From the NCBI GenBank assembly GCA_013036105.1, contig JAAXCX010000003.1:1-64000 (forward strand): 64,000 bases of DNA, read 5' to 3'. Source of the stretch: Vulcanimicrobiota bacterium (lineage in GTDB: Bacteria > Vulcanimicrobiota > Vulcanimicrobiia > Vulcanimicrobiales > Vulcanimicrobiaceae). Under the pieces are notes generated by a model. That model was not told where the DNA came from, made no database searches, and was given only the letters and a program-made list of their open reading frames with translations. Position 1 is the stretch's first letter. Each line of letters begins with the position of its first letter. Positions 1,436 through 23,682 of the stretch are shown here, piece after piece. The position numbers and the translations under genes were made by a program.

Positions 1436-4441
<3,006 letters not shown>

Positions 4442-4560
4442 TACGACTACCCGATGCATCGGGAGATTCCCGCCAACACTTGGGGACTTGACGCCTCAAC
4501 CAAATCCGCGCCGCGATGATCGCGAAAGGCAACGCGCAAGCCAACCCGTAACGGGCCCAC

Positions 4561-10106: not shown

Positions 10107-10732
10107 GCCGTTCGCAGGCTCGCCTCCGCCGCATCAAAGCGTTTACGCAATATGCTCGAGACCGGGGCCGCCGCGATAAAACCGGCCGTAATGAGAAAAT
10201 AAAACGGCCCCGGCTCAAAAACCAAAATGATCACAAGCGCGAAAACAAACGGAGTCGTCCACAGCCCCATGAAGGCCGCGCCCCGCACCGCGCGCAAACG
10301 CGCTGCCGGGACCTGCCGCGCTGACGCATATTTGAGTGCAATGAGATACTGGACCGTCAGCAGTGCGTAGACCATGGCGTAGCACGCAAAGTAAAAACGC
10401 ATCGCCGTCAGCGTCCCGAGTTTGGTATACGTTTCGGCCGCAAACACGACCATGACCACCGAAGCGAGCCACACGAAATTGAGTACGACCGGCCACGTCT
10501 TGGGGATGAAGAGCTGCGAAAACAGCCGGTGGTGAAAAAACCAGGCCGAGCAAACGATTGCGAATGGAAAGAGAAAATTTAGCAGGCCTAAGGGCGTGAG
10601 AAAATCATGCAGCCCTTGTTGTGAAACGACCAGCGCGGCGCCCAGTTGAGCGAGGCTGAATCCGATGACAACGTCTGAGAAGGCCTCGAGCCGTCGTGTA
10701 AAGTGCTGTTCTGATTCGTTGCGCTCGATCAT
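10103..10732 (-). CDS. TMEM175/DUF1211-like membrane protein, copy 1
   Basis: A 209-residue, six-helix membrane protein related to its downstream neighbour. The first helix reads RRLEAFSDVVIGFSLAQLG and the third AWFFHHRLFSQLF, the same positions as RLEAFSD and WWAHHRLFTHYF in the second copy. The FSD motif places both in the TMEM175/DUF1211 family. The ATG at 10732 overlaps the acnA stop by 4 bp and its own stop overlaps the next start by 4 bp, so translation looks coupled from acnA onward. The connection to aconitase is unexplained. Confidence 0.75.
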   Translation of the reverse strand: MIERNESEQHFTRRLEAFSDVVIGFSLAQLGAALVVSQQGLHDFLTPLGLLNFLFPFAIVCSAWFFHHRLFSQLFIPKTWPVVLNFVWLASVVMVVFAAETYTKLGTLTAMRFYFACYAMVYALLTVQYLIALKYASARQVPAARLRAVRGAAFMGLWTTPFVFALVIILVFEPGPFYFLITAGFIAAAPVSSILRKRFDAAEASLRTA

Positions 10733-13548
10733 GCAGTCCGCTGCGCGCGGAGCTGGCGCAAGACGTACTGCAGCACGCCGCCGTGCCGAAAATATTCGGC
10801 TTCGTCGGGCGTGTCTATGCGCAGCAGCACTTCAAAATTCAGCGGCCGGTCGGCGCGTGCGGTCACGCGAATATTGAGATGCATTCCGGGTTTGACGCCG
10901 TCGGCGTAACCGGTAACGTCGTAGACTTCCTCACCCGTGAGGGCGTACGTCGAGCGATCCGCGCCGCCGATGAATTCGAGCGGCAGAATACCCATTCCGA
11001 TGAGATTGCTGCGATGGATGCGTTCGAACGATTCCGCAAGCACGGCCTTGACGCCAAGCAAATGCGGACCCTTCGCGGCCCAATCTCGCGACGAGCCCGA
11101 TCCGTACTCTTTGCCGGCTAGGACCAGAAGCGGAACGCCCTCGGCTTTATAGTGCACCGCCGCATCGTAGATCGGCATCTGCTCGCCTTGCGGCAGCAGC
11201 TGCGTGTAGCCGCCCTCGACGCCGGGCACGAGCAGATTGCGCAAGCGTACGTTCGCAAACGTGCCGCGCATCATCACTTCGTGGTTGCCGCGCCGCGCAC
11301 CGTACGAATTAAAATCGGACGGCTGAATCCCGTGCTCCATCAAATACTTCGCAGCCGGACTATTGCGCGCGATATTGCCCGCCGGCGAAATGTGATCGGT
11401 TGTAACGCTATCGCCGACCATGACCAGCACGCGCGCTCCACGCACGTCGGTCAGCGGCGGCGGTTCGGCGGGCATGTTTTCAAAATACGGCGGCCGCTTG
11501 ACGTACTCCGATTTTGGATCCCACGCATACCGTTCGCCCGCCGGCACGTCCAGTTGCGCCCAGTTCGCGTCGCCGGCAAAGACGTTGCTGTAGTTCGTCT
11601 TGAAGAGATCGCCGCTGATCGACTCGGCAACGACTTTTGAGATCTCCGAATCGTCGGGCCAAATGTCTTTCAGATAGACAGGCTTGCCGGATGAGTCGGC
11701 GCCCAACGGCTCGGACGTGAGATCGATGTCCATGCGGCCGGCAAGCGCATAGGCGACGACCAGCGGCGGCGAAGCCAAATAATTGGCGTGCACCTGCGGA
11801 TGAATGCGTCCCTCGAAGTTGCGGTTGCCGGAAAGCACCGCGGCGACGATCGAATCTTCTTCGGCGATCGCTTCAGCAATATCGGGTCGCAGCGGACCGC
11901 TGTTGCCGATGCACGTAGTGCAGCCGTAGCCGACCAAATAAAATCCGAGCCGATCCAAATACTGCGACAGGCCGGATTTCTTCAAGTACTCGGTGACGAC
12001 TTTGGAGCCTGGCGCAAGAGACGTTTTCACCCACGGTTTACTCTTGAGTCCGCGGGCAAGCGCGTTGCGCGCAAGCAAGCCCGCGCCGATAAGCACGTTC
12101 GGATTGCTCGTGTTCGTACAGCTTGTGATAGCCGCAATGACGACCGACCCGTCGGCGATCTCCGTTTTCGGCTCGACCGCGACGGCCGTTCCCATTCCGC
12201 CCTCGCTCTCCATGCGCGCGGCGTTGCTCGCGGGTTTTGCGTCGCGCGCCGCTTGCCATTCCGCAAGCGCGTCGTTGAACGTGCGCTTGACGTCGTGCAG
12301 CGGCACCCGGTCTTGCGGGCGCCGCGGCCCCGCCAAGCACGGTTCGACGGTGCCGAGATCGAGTTCGAGCGTATCGCTGAATAAAGGATCGGGCGTATCG
12401 TCGGTCCGGAACAAGCCTTGCGCTTTCGCATATGCTTCGACCAGCGCGATGTGTTCGGGTGCGCGGCCTGTCAACCGCAAGTAGTCCAGCGTCTGCGCAT
12501 CGATCGGAAAGATCGCGCACGTCGATCCGTACTCCGGCGACATATTTCCGATCGTCGTGCGATCGACGACGGCAAGATTTGAGAGCCCGCGGCCGTAGAA
12601 CTCCACGAACTTGCCGACGACGCCCTTCTTGCGCAGCATATGCGTGACGGTCAGCACCAAATCGGTCGCCGTTACCCCCGGCCGCAAGCTTCCGTTCAAC
12701 TTGAAACCGACGACGTCGGGAATGAGCATCGTAATGGGCTGCCCGAGCATCGCGGCTTCAGCTTCGATCCCGCCGACGCCCCACGCGAGCACGCCCAATC
12801 CGTTAACCATCGTTGTATGCGAATCCGTACCGACGACCGTATCCGGATACGCTAAGGCATCTTGCCCACTCTCCTTGGGATCGTTGGGGATGGGTCCGCC
12901 CGAACGATTAACCATGCCCTTAGTGAGGGCGGACTCATCCCTGACGGTCCCATCTCCCCCTCCGCCAAATACGACACGAGCTAAGAACTCGATGTTGACC
13001 TGGTGCACGATTCCAGTGTCGGGGGGAACGGCGCGGAAGTTGTGGAGCGCTTCCTGTCCCCACTTGAGAAAAGCATAACGCTCGCGGTTGCGTTCGAACT
13101 CGAGGCGCGCGTTTTCCGCGAACGCGCCGCTCGAACCAAACGCGTCGACTTGCACGGAGTGGTCGATAACCAACTCGACGGGCTGCAGCGGGTTGATCGC
13201 TTTGGGGTCACCACCCATCACTGCCATCGCATCGCGCATCGCTGCCAGATCGACGACGCACGGAACGCCGGTGAAATCTTGCAGCAGCACGCGCGCGGGG
13301 CGGAAGGCGATCTCGCGGTCGCTGCGCTTGGCCGGATGCCAGCGCGCTAGCGCTTCGACGTCGGCTCGCTCGACGGAGACGCCGTCTTCGAAACGCAGCA
13401 AGTTCTCCAGCAGAATCTTGAGCGAAAAGGGCAGCTGCGCGAGCTTCGCAACTCCGGCATCTTCCAGCGCGGCCAGGCGAACGTACGTATAACCGCGATC
13501 GCCGGCCTGGAAGCGAGCGAGGGCGTCGAAGCTTCCGGCGTATGTCAC
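10729..13548 (-). CDS. acnA: Aconitate hydratase AcnA, with in-frame palindromic insertion
   Basis: Aconitase interconverts citrate and isocitrate in the TCA cycle with a [4Fe-4S] cluster. The 939-residue product has the cluster cysteines in SCTNTSNP and YGCTTCIGNSGPL, plus YPDTVVGTDSHTTMVNGLGV and the C-terminal swivelling domain (VMVGDSVTTDHISPAG, GSGSSRDWAAKG). The GTG start at 13548 overlaps the rnd stop (GTGA). Between NIEFLARVVF and LAYPDTVVG there is an extra segment of about 25-30 residues (near 197-226, containing ALTKGMVNRSGG) encoded by a family A stem-loop element. The frame stays open, so the enzyme is probably functional with an extra surface loop. Confidence 0.96.
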   Translation of the reverse strand: MTYAGSFDALARFQAGDRGYTYVRLAALEDAGVAKLAQLPFSLKILLENLLRFEDGVSVERADVEALARWHPAKRSDREIAFRPARVLLQDFTGVPCVVDLAAMRDAMAVMGGDPKAINPLQPVELVIDHSVQVDAFGSSGAFAENARLEFERNRERYAFLKWGQEALHNFRAVPPDTGIVHQVNIEFLARVVFGGGGDGTVRDESALTKGMVNRSGGPIPNDPKESGQDALAYPDTVVGTDSHTTMVNGLGVLAWGVGGIEAEAAMLGQPITMLIPDVVGFKLNGSLRPGVTATDLVLTVTHMLRKKGVVGKFVEFYGRGLSNLAVVDRTTIGNMSPEYGSTCAIFPIDAQTLDYLRLTGRAPEHIALVEAYAKAQGLFRTDDTPDPLFSDTLELDLGTVEPCLAGPRRPQDRVPLHDVKRTFNDALAEWQAARDAKPASNAARMESEGGMGTAVAVEPKTEIADGSVVIAAITSCTNTSNPNVLIGAGLLARNALARGLKSKPWVKTSLAPGSKVVTEYLKKSGLSQYLDRLGFYLVGYGCTTCIGNSGPLRPDIAEAIAEEDSIVAAVLSGNRNFEGRIHPQVHANYLASPPLVVAYALAGRMDIDLTSEPLGADSSGKPVYLKDIWPDDSEISKVVAESISGDLFKTNYSNVFAGDANWAQLDVPAGERYAWDPKSEYVKRPPYFENMPAEPPPLTDVRGARVLVMVGDSVTTDHISPAGNIARNSPAAKYLMEHGIQPSDFNSYGARRGNHEVMMRGTFANVRLRNLLVPGVEGGYTQLLPQGEQMPIYDAAVHYKAEGVPLLVLAGKEYGSGSSRDWAAKGPHLLGVKAVLAESFERIHRSNLIGMGILPLEFIGGADRSTYALTGEEVYDVTGYADGVKPGMHLNIRVTARADRPLNFEVLLRIDTPDEAEYFRHGGVLQYVLRQLRAQRTA
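12887..12941. repeat. Family A stem-loop element inside acnA
   Basis: The arms 12887-12901 (GGGATGGGTCCGCCC) and 12927-12941 (GGGCGGACTCATCCC) pair over 15 bp with one G-T wobble. They enclose a 25-nt loop at 12902-12926 that begins GAACGATTAACCATGCC and ends AGTGA. The loop closely matches the loops of the copies at 19064-19088 and 19124-19148, while the stems differ. In the acnA frame it encodes ESALTKGMVNRSGG. Confidence 0.85.
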
Positions 13549-15789: not shown

Positions 15790-15887
15790 TTGTCTCGAGA
15801 GTAATACGGGATTCTATACCGGAGTCCGGGAGCTGAGTCTACCGCCGGTGCTACAAAAAAAGCCACGCGCAGCGTGGCTTTTTTTTT
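15790..15887 (+). ncRNA. Candidate small RNA, about 95-100 nt
   Basis: The interval between a consensus-like promoter (15757-15783) and a strong intrinsic terminator (15855-15887) contains no plausible reading frame. The sequence has self-complementary parts, for example ACCGG near 15820 with CCGGT near 15845. No known RNA family is recognised. The region could equally be the 3' untranslated region of the VKOR gene, with the terminator serving mainly the opposite-strand gene. Confidence 0.35.
15855..15887. terminator. Bidirectional intrinsic terminator
   Basis: A GC-rich stem (GCCACGC / GCGTGGC) with a very short loop is flanked by a run of A on the left and nine T on the right. It can therefore stop transcription on both strands: for the gene at 15901-16512 (stop 13 bp away) and for plus-strand transcripts from the VKOR side. 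Confidence 0.9.
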
Positions 15888-15900
15888 GTGCTGCCGCGTC

Positions 15901-16994: not shown

Positions 16995-17019
16995 GAGAAG
17001 AGAGTTTGGAGGCGAGCTG

Positions 17020-17481: not shown

Positions 17482-18231
17482 TTGCGGCTAGCGGCGACGG
17501 TCATGCTCGCCCGCCCGGCAAGCGCACGCTTCGAGGTCTTCATGCTGCGCAGAAGCGAGCGCAGCCACTTCGTGCCCGACGCTTACGTCTTTCCCGGCGG
17601 CACTCTCTCGGAGCTCGACCTAAGCGAGCGCGCGCTCGCGCGTACACGCTTTGCGCCGAACGAAAGGGGACTCCGCGATCGGATCAGTGCCTCGACGGCC
17701 GGCGTTCCGCTCGCCTCGGATCGCGAGCTGGCCGCGCTTTTCTTCGCAGCGCTGCGTGAGCTTTACGAAGAAGCCGGCGTCCTCTTATCTTGCGACGCGC
17801 GCGGGAACGCGGTGAAAGCCGGCGCCGACGCTTCGCGCGTGGATTTTCTGGAATCGCTCGAACGCGAAGATCTGTATGCCGACGCGCGGCAGCTCGCGCT
17901 TTTTTCGCAATGGCTTACGCCGCCGCAGTTTTCCAAACGGTACAATACGCATTTCTTTCTCGCGCGCGCGCCGGACGGCGCTGCTGCCGCGGCCGACGAG
18001 CACGAGACGCACGACGGCCTCTGGATCGCTCCGACCGACGCGCTCGCGCGCAACGAAGCTGGCGATCTGCATCTCGTCTATCCGACCGTAAAGCACTTGG
18101 AAAGACTTACGCGGTTCGCCACGCTGGACGGACTCTTGGAATTCGCTCGTACGAAACGGGTTCTGGCGCTCTCGCCGTATACAGAGAACGATACCTTCGC
18201 TTTGCCGCCGGCATTGGAAAATGCGTGGTAG
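17482..18231 (+). CDS. Nudix hydrolase (NUDT19-like)
   Basis: A 249-residue protein with a long Nudix domain: YVFPGG near residue 36, then the Nudix box AALRELYEEAGVLL near residues 90-103. The spacing and the C-terminal extension (TVKHLERLTRF) resemble the NUDT19/CoA-diphosphatase-like branch. Nudix enzymes hydrolyse nucleoside-diphosphate-X compounds; the substrate is not determinable. The start is a TTG at 17482, with an ATG seven codons later as alternative. The stop overlaps the following metallo-beta-lactamase gene by 7 bp, a pair also seen in other bacteria. Confidence 0.87.
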   Translation: MRLAATVMLARPASARFEVFMLRRSERSHFVPDAYVFPGGTLSELDLSERALARTRFAPNERGLRDRISASTAGVPLASDRELAALFFAALRELYEEAGVLLSCDARGNAVKAGADASRVDFLESLEREDLYADARQLALFSQWLTPPQFSKRYNTHFFLARAPDGAAAAADEHETHDGLWIAPTDALARNEAGDLHLVYPTVKHLERLTRFATLDGLLEFARTKRVLALSPYTENDTFALPPALENAW

Positions 18232-19034
18232 AGTCGCGCATCGCCCTCATTCGCGCGCCCAATCCGTCGCCGCTGACGCTGACCGGAACCAACTCCTACA
18301 TTATCGACTGCGGCAACGGCGAAGCGATCTGCATCGATCCGGGGCCGCCGATCGAATCGCACGTTGAAGCTCTTCTCGCACACTGCGAACGGATCCGATG
18401 CACAATCATCTGGATCGCCTTGACTCACGGGCATCCCGACCACGCGCCGGCCGCAGCACTACTGCGTGAACGGACAAGCGCGCACATCGCCGCGCACGAA
18501 AAGAGCGGCGTTACGCACGACCGCAGTTTGCGCGATGGCGACACGGTCGGTGCCGGCGACGTTGCGCTGCAAGCGGTCGCGGCGCCCGGTCACTCCGCCG
18601 ACCACGTCGTCTTTTACGAACCGCGCGAGCGCGCGCTCTTTACCGGCGATACCGTCTTGGGTGAGGGATACGTGCTGATCACACCGCCGGATGGCGACAT
18701 GCGCGCCTACATGCAAACCTTATCGCGTCTCTCGCGCGAGTTCGCAGAAACACGCACGATTTTCGGCGGACACGGCGAGCCGGTCCGCGAGCCCGCCGTG
18801 AAGTTGGAAGAGTACCTTGAGCACCGCCGCGCGCGCGAGCGCCAGATCATCGACGCTTTGAGCGGCGGCAGCAAAACGGTTTCCGATCTCGTCGCATCGA
18901 TCTACGCGCAAACCGACCGCGCGCTCTGGCCGGCCGCGGCTCAGCAAGTGCTGGCGTACCTCGACGCGCTCGAACGCGAAGGCCGCATCCGTTCGGATCG
19001 GGCGCAAGCACCGCCTGTCTACACCCTGTCGTGA
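18225..19034 (+). CDS. Metallo-beta-lactamase-fold hydrolase (LACTB2-like)
   Basis: The 269-residue product from the GTG at 18225 contains the metal-binding set THGHPDH (from His68), the second histidine in GHSADHV, FTGDTVLG, and GGHGEPV. After the MBL fold comes a helical C-terminal part (DALSGGSKTVSDLVASIYAQ...) like the winged-helix tail of LACTB2-type proteins. Such proteins act as thioesterases or endoribonucleases; the substrate here is not known. It overlaps the Nudix gene and is followed by two family A stem-loops. Confidence 0.87.
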   Translation: MVESRIALIRAPNPSPLTLTGTNSYIIDCGNGEAICIDPGPPIESHVEALLAHCERIRCTIIWIALTHGHPDHAPAAALLRERTSAHIAAHEKSGVTHDRSLRDGDTVGAGDVALQAVAAPGHSADHVVFYEPRERALFTGDTVLGEGYVLITPPDGDMRAYMQTLSRLSREFAETRTIFGGHGEPVREPAVKLEEYLEHRRARERQIIDALSGGSKTVSDLVASIYAQTDRALWPAAAQQVLAYLDALEREGRIRSDRAQAPPVYTLS

Positions 19035-19042
19035 ATTCCGAC

Positions 19043-19109
19043 TAAGGGCATCCCATGCGGTTCGAGCGATTAACCATGCCTAAAGCGAGAACCGCATGGG
19101 GTGCCCTTA
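19043..19109. repeat. Family A stem-loop element, long-stem copy
   Basis: Arms 19043-19063 and 19089-19109 pair over 21 bp with one wobble (TAAGGGCA...GCGGTTC against GAACCGC...TGCCCTTA). They enclose a 25-nt loop at 19064-19088 beginning GAGCGATTAACCATGCC and ending AGCGA. It lies between the stops of the metallo-beta-lactamase gene and the convergent oxidoreductase gene. It could act as a terminator-like stem but lacks a T-run. Confidence 0.85.
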
Positions 19110-19116
19110 TCACCGC

Positions 19117-19155
19117 GTTGTCCGAGCGATTAAACATCGCCAAAGCGAGGACAAC
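19117..19155. repeat. Family A stem-loop element, short-stem copy
   Basis: Arms GTTGTCC (19117-19123) and GGACAAC (19149-19155) enclose a 25-nt loop at 19124-19148 beginning GAGCGATTAAACATCGCC and ending AGCGA. The loop has the same length and near-identical sequence as the tandem copy 7 bp upstream, but the stem is unrelated. Confidence 0.8.
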
Positions 19156-19170
19156 ATGAGCCGCCCTCGA

Positions 19171-20160
19171 TTATGAAGGAACGCGCAGAACGATCTTGCC
19201 GAATTGGAGCGCATCATCCATCCTTTGCATCGCGCTTTCGATCTCGGCAAGTTCGTAGACGCGGTCGATCACAGGTTTGATGCGGTGCTTGGAGACGAAG
19301 TCGAGCATCGCAGCGAAGTCGCCCGGACTTCCCATCGACGTTCCGTAGATCGAAAGCTGATGCCAGAAGATCGGGAACATCTTGATGGTCGCGTCGCCGG
19401 TTGTGCCGCCGTACGTCACGGCGCGTCCGCCGGGCTTTACGACGGAAAGCGCTTTCGCAAACGAATCGCCGCCCGCGGAGTCGATCGCTAAGTCGACGGC
19501 CCCGACCGCCGCGCGCACCGCCTTGTGCCAGTCGGGCGTGGTCGCATAGTTGATCGCCACGTCCGCGCCGAGCGCCTTCGCGCGTTCGAGTTTTCCATCG
19601 CGGCTCGACGTGACGACCGTGCGCGCGCCGATCGCCTTGGCATAAAGCAGCGCGAACGTTTGCACGCCGCCGCCGACGCCGGTAATCAACACAGTTTGGC
19701 CGGCTTGCAAACCGCCGCAGACGAACGCGGCGCGATATGCAGTGACGCCACCGAGCGGCAACGCGGCGGCTTCTTCAACAGAAAGATGCTCGGGCTTTGC
19801 GTGAACGTTTTCATTCGGAACCGCGACGTTTTGCGCGAACGTGCCGTCGGCAGGCATGCCAAGGATCGACGCCTCCGGGCTCCAGACACGTTCGTCGGAG
19901 CCCCAGCCAATGGTAGGGTCGACGACCACCTCGCGCCCGCCGGCCTCCCCGCAGCAATCCGATCCGAGGATCGCCGGCAAGACGATGTTCGGATAGAGCC
20001 CGCGCGTGATGAAGACGTCGCGGTGGTTGAGCGCCGCGGCTCGCACGCGCACGACCGTCTGACCCTCCGCCGCCTCGGGAAGCGGCACGTCCTCGATGCG
20101 AAGCCCCGGACCGCCCTTTTCATATAAACGCGCTGCGCGCATTGCGGTGGCTTGCGCCAC
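19171..20160 (-). CDS. Zinc-type alcohol dehydrogenase/quinone oxidoreductase family protein
   Basis: A 329-residue medium-chain dehydrogenase/reductase. The N-terminal catalytic domain has AAALNHRDVFITRGLYP and LGSDCCGE. The nucleotide-binding motif is VLITGVGGGVQTFALLYAKAIGA, which fits NAD(P)H. The four-cysteine structural zinc lobe of true alcohol dehydrogenases is not visible, so quinone-oxidoreductase-like activity is more likely. The start is a GTG at 20160 (AAGGGGGG upstream) or an ATG at 20142. The gene is divergent from a CGNR regulator, and an operator-like 28-bp repeat (20190-20217) sits in its promoter region. Confidence 0.88.
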   Translation of the reverse strand: MAQATAMRAARLYEKGGPGLRIEDVPLPEAAEGQTVVRVRAAALNHRDVFITRGLYPNIVLPAILGSDCCGEAGGREVVVDPTIGWGSDERVWSPEASILGMPADGTFAQNVAVPNENVHAKPEHLSVEEAAALPLGGVTAYRAAFVCGGLQAGQTVLITGVGGGVQTFALLYAKAIGARTVVTSSRDGKLERAKALGADVAINYATTPDWHKAVRAAVGAVDLAIDSAGGDSFAKALSVVKPGGRAVTYGGTTGDATIKMFPIFWHQLSIYGTSMGSPGDFAAMLDFVSKHRIKPVIDRVYELAEIESAMQRMDDALQFGKIVLRVPS

Positions 20161-23171: not shown

Positions 23172-23633
23172 GTGCCCCGCTACTGGCTCTTCAAGACGGA
23201 ACCGCACGCGTTCAGTTTCGAGCGCCTGAAGCAAGACGGCACGACTCCCTGGAGCGGCGTCCGCAACTTCCAAGCCCGCAACAACATGATCGAAATGCGC
23301 TTGGGCGATCTCGGCCTGTTCTACCACTCAAGCATCGCCGAGCCGGCCGCGATGGGGATTTGCAAAGTCGTGAAAGAGGCGTATCCCGACTTTACCGCCT
23401 TCGAGAAAGGCGGCGAATATTACGATCCGCGCAGCACGCCCGATAAACCCATGTGGAAGATGGTCGACGTCGGATTCGTCGAGGAGTTCGCGCATCCCGT
23501 GACGCTCGCGCGCATGCGCGCGGAACCGCGTCTGCTCGGCATGGACCTCCTGAAGCGAGGCTACCGGCTTTCCGTGCAACCCGTCATGCCGCACGAGTGG
23601 AACGTCGTGTTGGAATTGGCCAGGACGGCATGA
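23172..23633 (+). CDS. EVE-domain protein
   Basis: The 153-residue product (GTG at 23172) is a single EVE domain: YWLFKTEPHAFSFERL, WSGVRNFQARNNM, GDLGLFYHSS, and the C-terminal RLSVQPVMPHEWNVVL. EVE domains have a PUA-like fold and bind modified bases in DNA or RNA; human THYN1 is the best known relative. The role in this bacterium is unknown. A bidirectional terminator starts at its stop codon. Confidence 0.93.
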   Translation: MPRYWLFKTEPHAFSFERLKQDGTTPWSGVRNFQARNNMIEMRLGDLGLFYHSSIAEPAAMGICKVVKEAYPDFTAFEKGGEYYDPRSTPDKPMWKMVDVGFVEEFAHPVTLARMRAEPRLLGMDLLKRGYRLSVQPVMPHEWNVVLELARTA

Positions 23634-23663
23634 AAAGGGCCCGCCGAAACGGCGGGCCCTTTT
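23633..23663. terminator. Bidirectional intrinsic terminator
   Basis: A 10-bp stem (GGGCCCGCCG / CGGCGGGCCC) with a 3-nt loop is flanked by AAAA and TTTT. It lies between the stops of the convergent EVE-domain and TonB-receptor genes and can serve both. Confidence 0.92.
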
Positions 23664-23682
23664 CTTTACGCTCGCGTGAACG

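Follow-up and report, generated by a model that had tools for sequence, protein, structure and literature searches.

Results

The locus and its three hairpins

The window, by which we mean the whole stretch of 64,000 nucleotides analysed here, contains three hairpins with a shared loop, one inside a gene and two in the gap between a pair of convergent genes. The relevant features are listed below; gene boundaries are those of a simple codon-usage caller and exact starts are uncertain.

10729 to 13548, minus strand: aconitate hydratase AcnA gene (NCBIfam AcnA, Pfam Aconitase, protein alignment), host of copy 1
12876 to 12952, plus strand: copy 1, complete hairpin of 26 pairs, four being G.T (sequence and pairing)
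16995 to 17019, no strand: empty site B, a 25-nt gap between genes in this genome, without a stem; the congeners G002 and G004 carry a copy there
18225 to 19034, plus strand: metallo-beta-lactamase-fold gene (gene call; Pfam Lactamase_B and BLACT_WH)
19043 to 19109, plus strand: copy 2, hairpin of 21 pairs including one G.T, between two convergent genes
19117 to 19155, plus strand: copy 3, hairpin of 7 perfect pairs with a ragged outer stem
19171 to 20142, minus strand: zinc-binding quinone/alcohol dehydrogenase-like gene (gene call and domain/family matches)

The metallo-beta-lactamase-fold gene stops 8 nt ahead of copy 2, and the stop codon of the dehydrogenase-like gene on the opposite strand lies 22 nt past the core of copy 3. 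This last copy occupies the site of a near-perfect 23-pair copy (L113) in the congener G006. Copy 1 is an in-frame insertion in the aconitase gene, of 31 amino acids relative to G006 in a protein alignment, with the motif on the antisense strand of that gene. The window also holds a TPP riboswitch (4347-4445, minus strand, above the gathering score).

The first-pass annotation had described these three hairpins with loops of exactly 25 nt, and this is what we find: the core loops span 12902-12926 (GAACGATTAACCATGCCCTTAGTGA), 19064-19088 (GAGCGATTAACCATGCCTAAAGCGA) and 19124-19148 (GAGCGATTAAACATCGCCAAAGCGA). Its stem lengths of 21 and 7 bp for copies 2 and 3 stand, whereas the 15 bp given for copy 1 fall short of the 26 pairs, four of them G.T, that close this hairpin. 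The peptide pattern [LA]xM[VF]NRS that it read on the complementary strand is present, but only copy 1 of the three lies within a gene. RNA folding of the plus strand against dinucleotide shuffles gave z-scores of -7.1, -8.6 and -3.1 for copies 1, 2 and 3. Stems of 13 or more pairs with loops of at most 40 nt number 11 in the window against 6-11 in shuffled sequence, and what rises above chance in the window hairpins is the shared loop, not long stems alone.

A dispersed family in two genera

A search by loop pattern, which the first-pass annotation had proposed, turned up further copies in this genome (10 matches with at most one mismatch, against 1 for a reversed control pattern) and in relatives, the exact pattern being present in six of six congeners and in one genome of a second genus. 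A covariance model trained on 34 copies matched copy 1 at 12882-12946 (67 bits, E 1.1e-15), copy 2 (75.7 bits, E 4.8e-18) and copy 3 at 19114-19158 (47.5 bits, E 2.3e-10). With this model we count at least 12 copies in this genome (G000; E 1.8e-16 to 3.6e-6), at least 3-15 in each of the six congeners (G001-G006) and at least 2 in G015, and a separate search of a second genus of the same family gave at least 19 in G048 and again at least 2 in G015; these numbers are lower bounds, a limited number of candidates per genome having been scored. Among the candidates scored, the model found none in the other relatives searched. The three window hairpins thus belong to a family dispersed through the genus and a second genus of the same family, and their stems differ between copies while the loop is kept, as the first-pass annotation had expected.

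In a pattern scan of about 85,000 species, matches fell only in Candidatus Eremiobacterota and on one contig of the cyanobacterium Lyngbya; the latter lacks a stem and was set aside as chance. The hosts are a small group of uncultured soil bacteria (Candidatus Eremiobacterota). A phage origin was considered and dropped, since viral contigs contained no exact core. The hairpin had no Rfam match at the gathering score, and weak matches below threshold, mainly to microRNA precursor models, were taken as chance. We found no description of this family in the literature on Eremiobacterota palindromes.

Anatomy of the unit

The loop has the length that was first reported (25-26 nt across the family) but is not open, because its two ends, GARCGA and AGYGA, face each other and close. 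Of 80 cores, 69 have G-C and 7 have A-T at the R-Y pair within these ends, none shows an A-C or G-T crossing, and the pair is proven by covariation. The steps below this pair, 5'-GA/3'-AG, are tandem G.A pairs, so that the core holds a tandem G.A motif plus two pairs and leaves an apical loop of about 17 nt, GATTAAMCATGnnnAA. The tandem step is repeated at the foot, where pairs 15-16 commonly carry the non-canonical letters A.G and G.A and are followed by C-G and G-C at 17-18. The unit, with a 5' foot of GCGA(GC), measures about 64 nt overall. In the first genus it reads GCGA, 14 pairs, GA-GC, apical loop, GC-GA, 14 pairs, GAGC, and in the second AGCGAGC, 13 pairs, core, 13 pairs, CGAGC.

The stems were first called unrelated, and the three window copies do look so. 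Across the family, however, the inner 14 nt of the stems are related, with a mean identity of 0.465 within a genome against 0.345 for shuffled arms; the stems share ancestry and are distant relatives of one another.

Covariation and the strand that folds

Double changes occur in 20 of 22 pairs; the covariation score is 0.728, whereas shuffles give 0.222 and slid partners 0.13-0.19. Among 68 well-paired copies, the motif strand shows 840 Watson-Crick, 70 G.T and 2 A.C pairs over the inner 14 positions of the stem (p ~1e-18), whereas at positions 21-28, beyond pair 20, G.T and A.C are nearly equally common (58 and 60) and the asymmetry is gone. The great excess of G.T over A.C on the motif strand means that the folded molecule is this strand and not its complement; the tolerance of G.T does not discriminate RNA from DNA. 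At orthologous sites, 20 pairs yielded 93 double changes from one pair to another; of the single changes, 55 exchanged Watson-Crick and G.U, 6 exchanged Watson-Crick and A.C, and 37 led to other mismatches, all counted over non-independent species pairs. The aconitase copy shows no change that disrupts pairing in three comparisons. After insertion, then, the stem drifts in sequence yet stays paired on the motif strand.

The copied unit is the whole hairpin

The units of G048 are about 63 nt long, have constant ends and are 75-93% identical between unrelated loci. Two of its copies, L277 and L278, share 93% identity over 72 nt with unrelated flanks, and the G015 site beside the same gene as L277 is empty. 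These comparisons show that what is copied is the whole hairpin and not the loop alone, which is best seen in this second genus. Most copies of the first genus are old and common to several species, and recent copying is shown mainly in G048. At L277 (1503-1647) there are also in-place tandem copies with one stem sequence: another core has the same right arm, and a third right arm stands alone.

Loop and stem follow different rules. For 52 copies at sites occupied in several species, stems differ by 4.21 when compared by site against 7.36, and they are not alike by genome (7.35, p 0.46), while loops resemble each other within a genome (4.27, p 0.0002) as much as at a site (4.52). In G004, for example, loops are A-rich even where the orthologous copies of other genomes have loops that are not. 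Such clustering is consistent with a trans-acting reader changing from lineage to lineage, or with homogenisation of loops, and part of it may stem from the shared ancestry of a genome's copies.

Presence, absence and inversion at orthologous sites

The aconitase copy is an in-frame insertion of 24-31 amino acids in G000, G003 and G004, and its site is empty in G001, G002, G005, G006 and nine outgroups. Another copy is inserted in frame in an M56 peptidase gene of G000, G001, G003 and G004. Of the other sites, site A is filled in G000, G002, G003 and G004 and empty in G001, G005 and G006; site B has a copy in G002 and G004 but none in this genome or in G006; at site C six genomes carry one and G006 does not. 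The species tree pairs G002 with G005 and G001 with G004, and both sister pairs differ at site A; for the shared sites, recurrent loss explains the pattern no less well than recurrent gain. The G001 aconitase looks like a deletion scar, and it is the species tree that makes this more likely. The idea that the outer left arm in aconitase was native sequence copied into the right arm (from the element-free G001 sequence GGGATCGACGG) was therefore discarded as support for stem capture.

At sites A and C the orientation of the element is flipped, and the stems can still be aligned in the motif orientation; the inversion therefore occurred in place. No stem matching that of the element was present at the empty orthologous sites compared, which were aconitase in four congeners and sites A, B, C and F; nor was a target-site duplication seen. 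In its behaviour the family resembles a mobile hairpin substrate, as was first suggested. Two local arrangements deserve mention. At site A of G005, past the amidase stop (L247), a bare palindrome, TTGCGATTGAATCGCAA, stands in place of the element and looks like the initial part of the core fused to an inverted copy of itself. At L120 (2930-3130) and L135 (2890-3120), a complete element seems to lie within what is left of an older copy that occupied this site.

Position relative to genes

Copies are located in gene gaps or within genes. In about 25 of them a gene on the opposite strand ends close by, with its stop codon 16-26 nt past the core, and within 12 nt of a gene's 3' end the motif is strongly biased towards the opposite orientation (29 opposite, 5 same). 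We attribute this closeness to 3' ends to tolerance in tight operons, not to a demonstrated target rule. For 39 of the 65 intergenic copies, the gene upstream is encoded on the other strand. By local GC skew, replication-strand orientation is 27 to 52, a bias that is not interpretable because the motif is mostly antisense to genes. The neighbours in this genome are housekeeping genes, including those for aconitase, MnmE, RuvB, SpoIID, an amidase and an ABC permease, and domain and family matches of the neighbour genes revealed no adjoining transposase.

At site C (L256, L257, L258, L259 and L260) the queA frame seems to start at the ATG of the element's central CATG, in frame in both orientations of the copy (starts MVNRS, MFNRS, or MQKSE/MRLSE); the empty site C of G006 is without a corresponding queA ATG. 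A second short repeat, about CCGAAGTCCTGAGCGAAGTCGAAGGGG, sits within the core loop at four loci of four genomes:

L087: 2954-3038
L123: 2992-3076
L112: 2947-3030
L141: 2406-2490

Searches for an enzyme

The first-pass annotation had pointed to a Y1-type transposase, or more generally to a linked transposase, recombinase or reverse transcriptase. The Y1 transposase profile (PF01797) gave 0 matches in the seven genomes of the genus (G000-G006) and in G015, five control genomes being positive. Reverse transcriptase (PF00078) gave 0 matches in G000-G006 and one in G015. For integron integrase (TIGR02249), nothing in 26 genomes exceeded the cut-off, and there was only general tyrosine-recombinase similarity. 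These absences hold within the limits of incomplete genomes. Neither the genes beside copies nor the Y1, reverse transcriptase and integrase profile searches tied a transposase, recombinase or other enzyme to the family.

Discussion

Our results lead us to propose that these hairpins are probably a new family of short, non-autonomous, palindromic elements derived from mobile DNA, in which the folded strand is read in trans by a putative factor. The roughly 64-nt hairpin is copied as a whole unit and sits in gene gaps and, in frame, inside genes; after insertion its stem drifts while staying paired on the motif strand, and its loop follows the genome as much as the site. The putative trans-acting factor would read the folded motif strand by its shape and by the loop sequence. 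We think its substrate more likely to be single-stranded DNA than RNA, because many copies are antisense to the flanking transcription unit, because orientation flips without loss of the fold, and because such single-stranded DNA hairpin substrates are known, namely REPs with their transposase and attC with IntI. The same factor, or an enzyme borrowed from another element, could copy or move the hairpin. A more specific form of the idea, possible but rather doubtful, is a transposition or homing system whose single-stranded DNA hairpin substrate is recognised by its loop, which would co-evolve with the putative enzyme, and by its shape, in which 13-14 pairs separate two tandem G.A steps. The stem sequence would be free, strand-specific selection would act on the antisense strand within protein-coding genes, and each copy could flip in place.

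The upkeep of pairing at old sites exceeds what a purely selfish relic would need and could mean a function for the host. It is conceivable, though on balance unlikely, that the family is a structured element of benefit to the host, either an RNA motif or a binding site in the form of a cruciform or DNA hairpin, which makes up a small regulon and persists because the host needs its copies at those genes. Pairing kept at the same site across speciation would follow from such a role, loops that follow the genome are expected from co-adaptation with a trans factor, and the stop codon of an opposite-strand gene 16-26 nt past the core in about 25 copies is in its favour; yet copies differ between sister species and flip orientation, two of the insertions are in-frame within aconitase and the M56 peptidase, and the neighbours in this genome have no evident common function. 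As an RNA, moreover, the motif strand would not be transcribed from the upstream gene in the majority of intergenic copies, where that gene is on the opposite strand, and the Rfam result also speaks against it. Nor is it probable that mutation alone maintains the palindromes, with template switching between the arms keeping them perfect and inverting loops in the absence of selection. Template switching has been reported to create and repair hairpins and to flip their loops (PMC8794818), in-place inversions are seen in this family and L277 has tandem copies of arm and loop, but by itself this process leaves unexplained the G.T to A.C asymmetry (70 to 2, and 55 to 6 at orthologous sites), the conserved loop and the tandem G.A foot. 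It may supply the inversions and some of the compensatory changes, yet it does not predict the asymmetry.

That the 25-nt core moves alone and captures, or inserts into, existing inverted repeats was one suggestion of the first-pass annotation. We consider it highly improbable: loops are more alike within a genome than stems are, and nested copies lie within an older stem at L120 and L135, but the empty sites compared are without matching stems, the stems share ancestry and the units duplicated in G048 (L277 and L278) are whole hairpins. Ordinary intrinsic terminators with a conserved loop have next to no chance of accounting for the family. Many copies do sit just past a stop codon; however, with the two strands counted separately, the stem is followed by four consecutive T in 1 and 2 of 79 copies, copies occur within genes as well, and the window has ordinary terminator-like hairpins with T-runs elsewhere (for example 15852-15888 and 23630-23666).

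If a non-autonomous family read in trans is the correct description, which factor reads the hairpin can be tested by matching gene presence to element presence. In-place inversions and differences in presence can be seen among closely related species, and the loop varies by genome. Because shape, strand and loop are retained but the stem can vary in sequence, what is read can be told apart from what merely pairs; strand-specific pairing persists within a core metabolic gene, on its antisense strand.

Bacteria commonly carry short palindromic repeats, whose stems as a rule have a fixed sequence. The hairpins described here are a new family within this known kind, short palindromic repeats derived from mobile elements, and are unusual in joining a free stem to a fixed loop. 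The systems nearest to them in behaviour are the Rickettsia palindromic elements (RPE) and similar protein-coding palindromes, which we compared by description, and the REPs. RPE are short palindromes inserted in-frame within unrelated metabolic genes of Rickettsia (PMC10969869). Both they and our family are scattered in one bacterial group and lie in-frame within unrelated metabolic genes, but our unit is about 64 nt long against about 150 nt, its hosts belong to a different phylum (the scan of about 85,000 species for the core pattern gave no Rickettsiales match), and it has a constant loop with a covarying stem, one strand kept foldable and in-place inversion.

REPs of the GTAG and CGTC families are short repeated hairpins, often after genes and sometimes within them, with G.T pairs in the stem (PMC3733652), and all of this holds for our family too. 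In one survey REP stems were 5-13 bp and loops 2-20 (PMC3733652), whereas the hairpins here have stems of 13-14 or more pairs and loops of about 25 nt. REPs have a tag, a more fixed stem and, in the GTAG case, a transposase, although CGTC REPs lack a dedicated one as well (PMC3733652). The genus studied here is without Y1/RAYT, the foot is GCGA...GAGC with no GTAG or CGTC tetranucleotide found, and the stem sequence is not fixed (0.465 within-genome identity); the early judgement that the family is unlike REPs was sound.

The resemblance to the attC sites of integrons is one of working only. In attC, too, one strand folds, it is antisense to the preceding gene near its stop codon and the letters of the stem vary; the family differs in having no integron integrase above the cut-off and no cassettes, and in occurring as single copies at housekeeping genes. 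Hairpins produced by template switching share with it inverted loops and perfect stems with compensatory changes (PMC8794818), and differ from it in that ours form a dispersed family with a conserved loop and a strand-specific rule of pairing.
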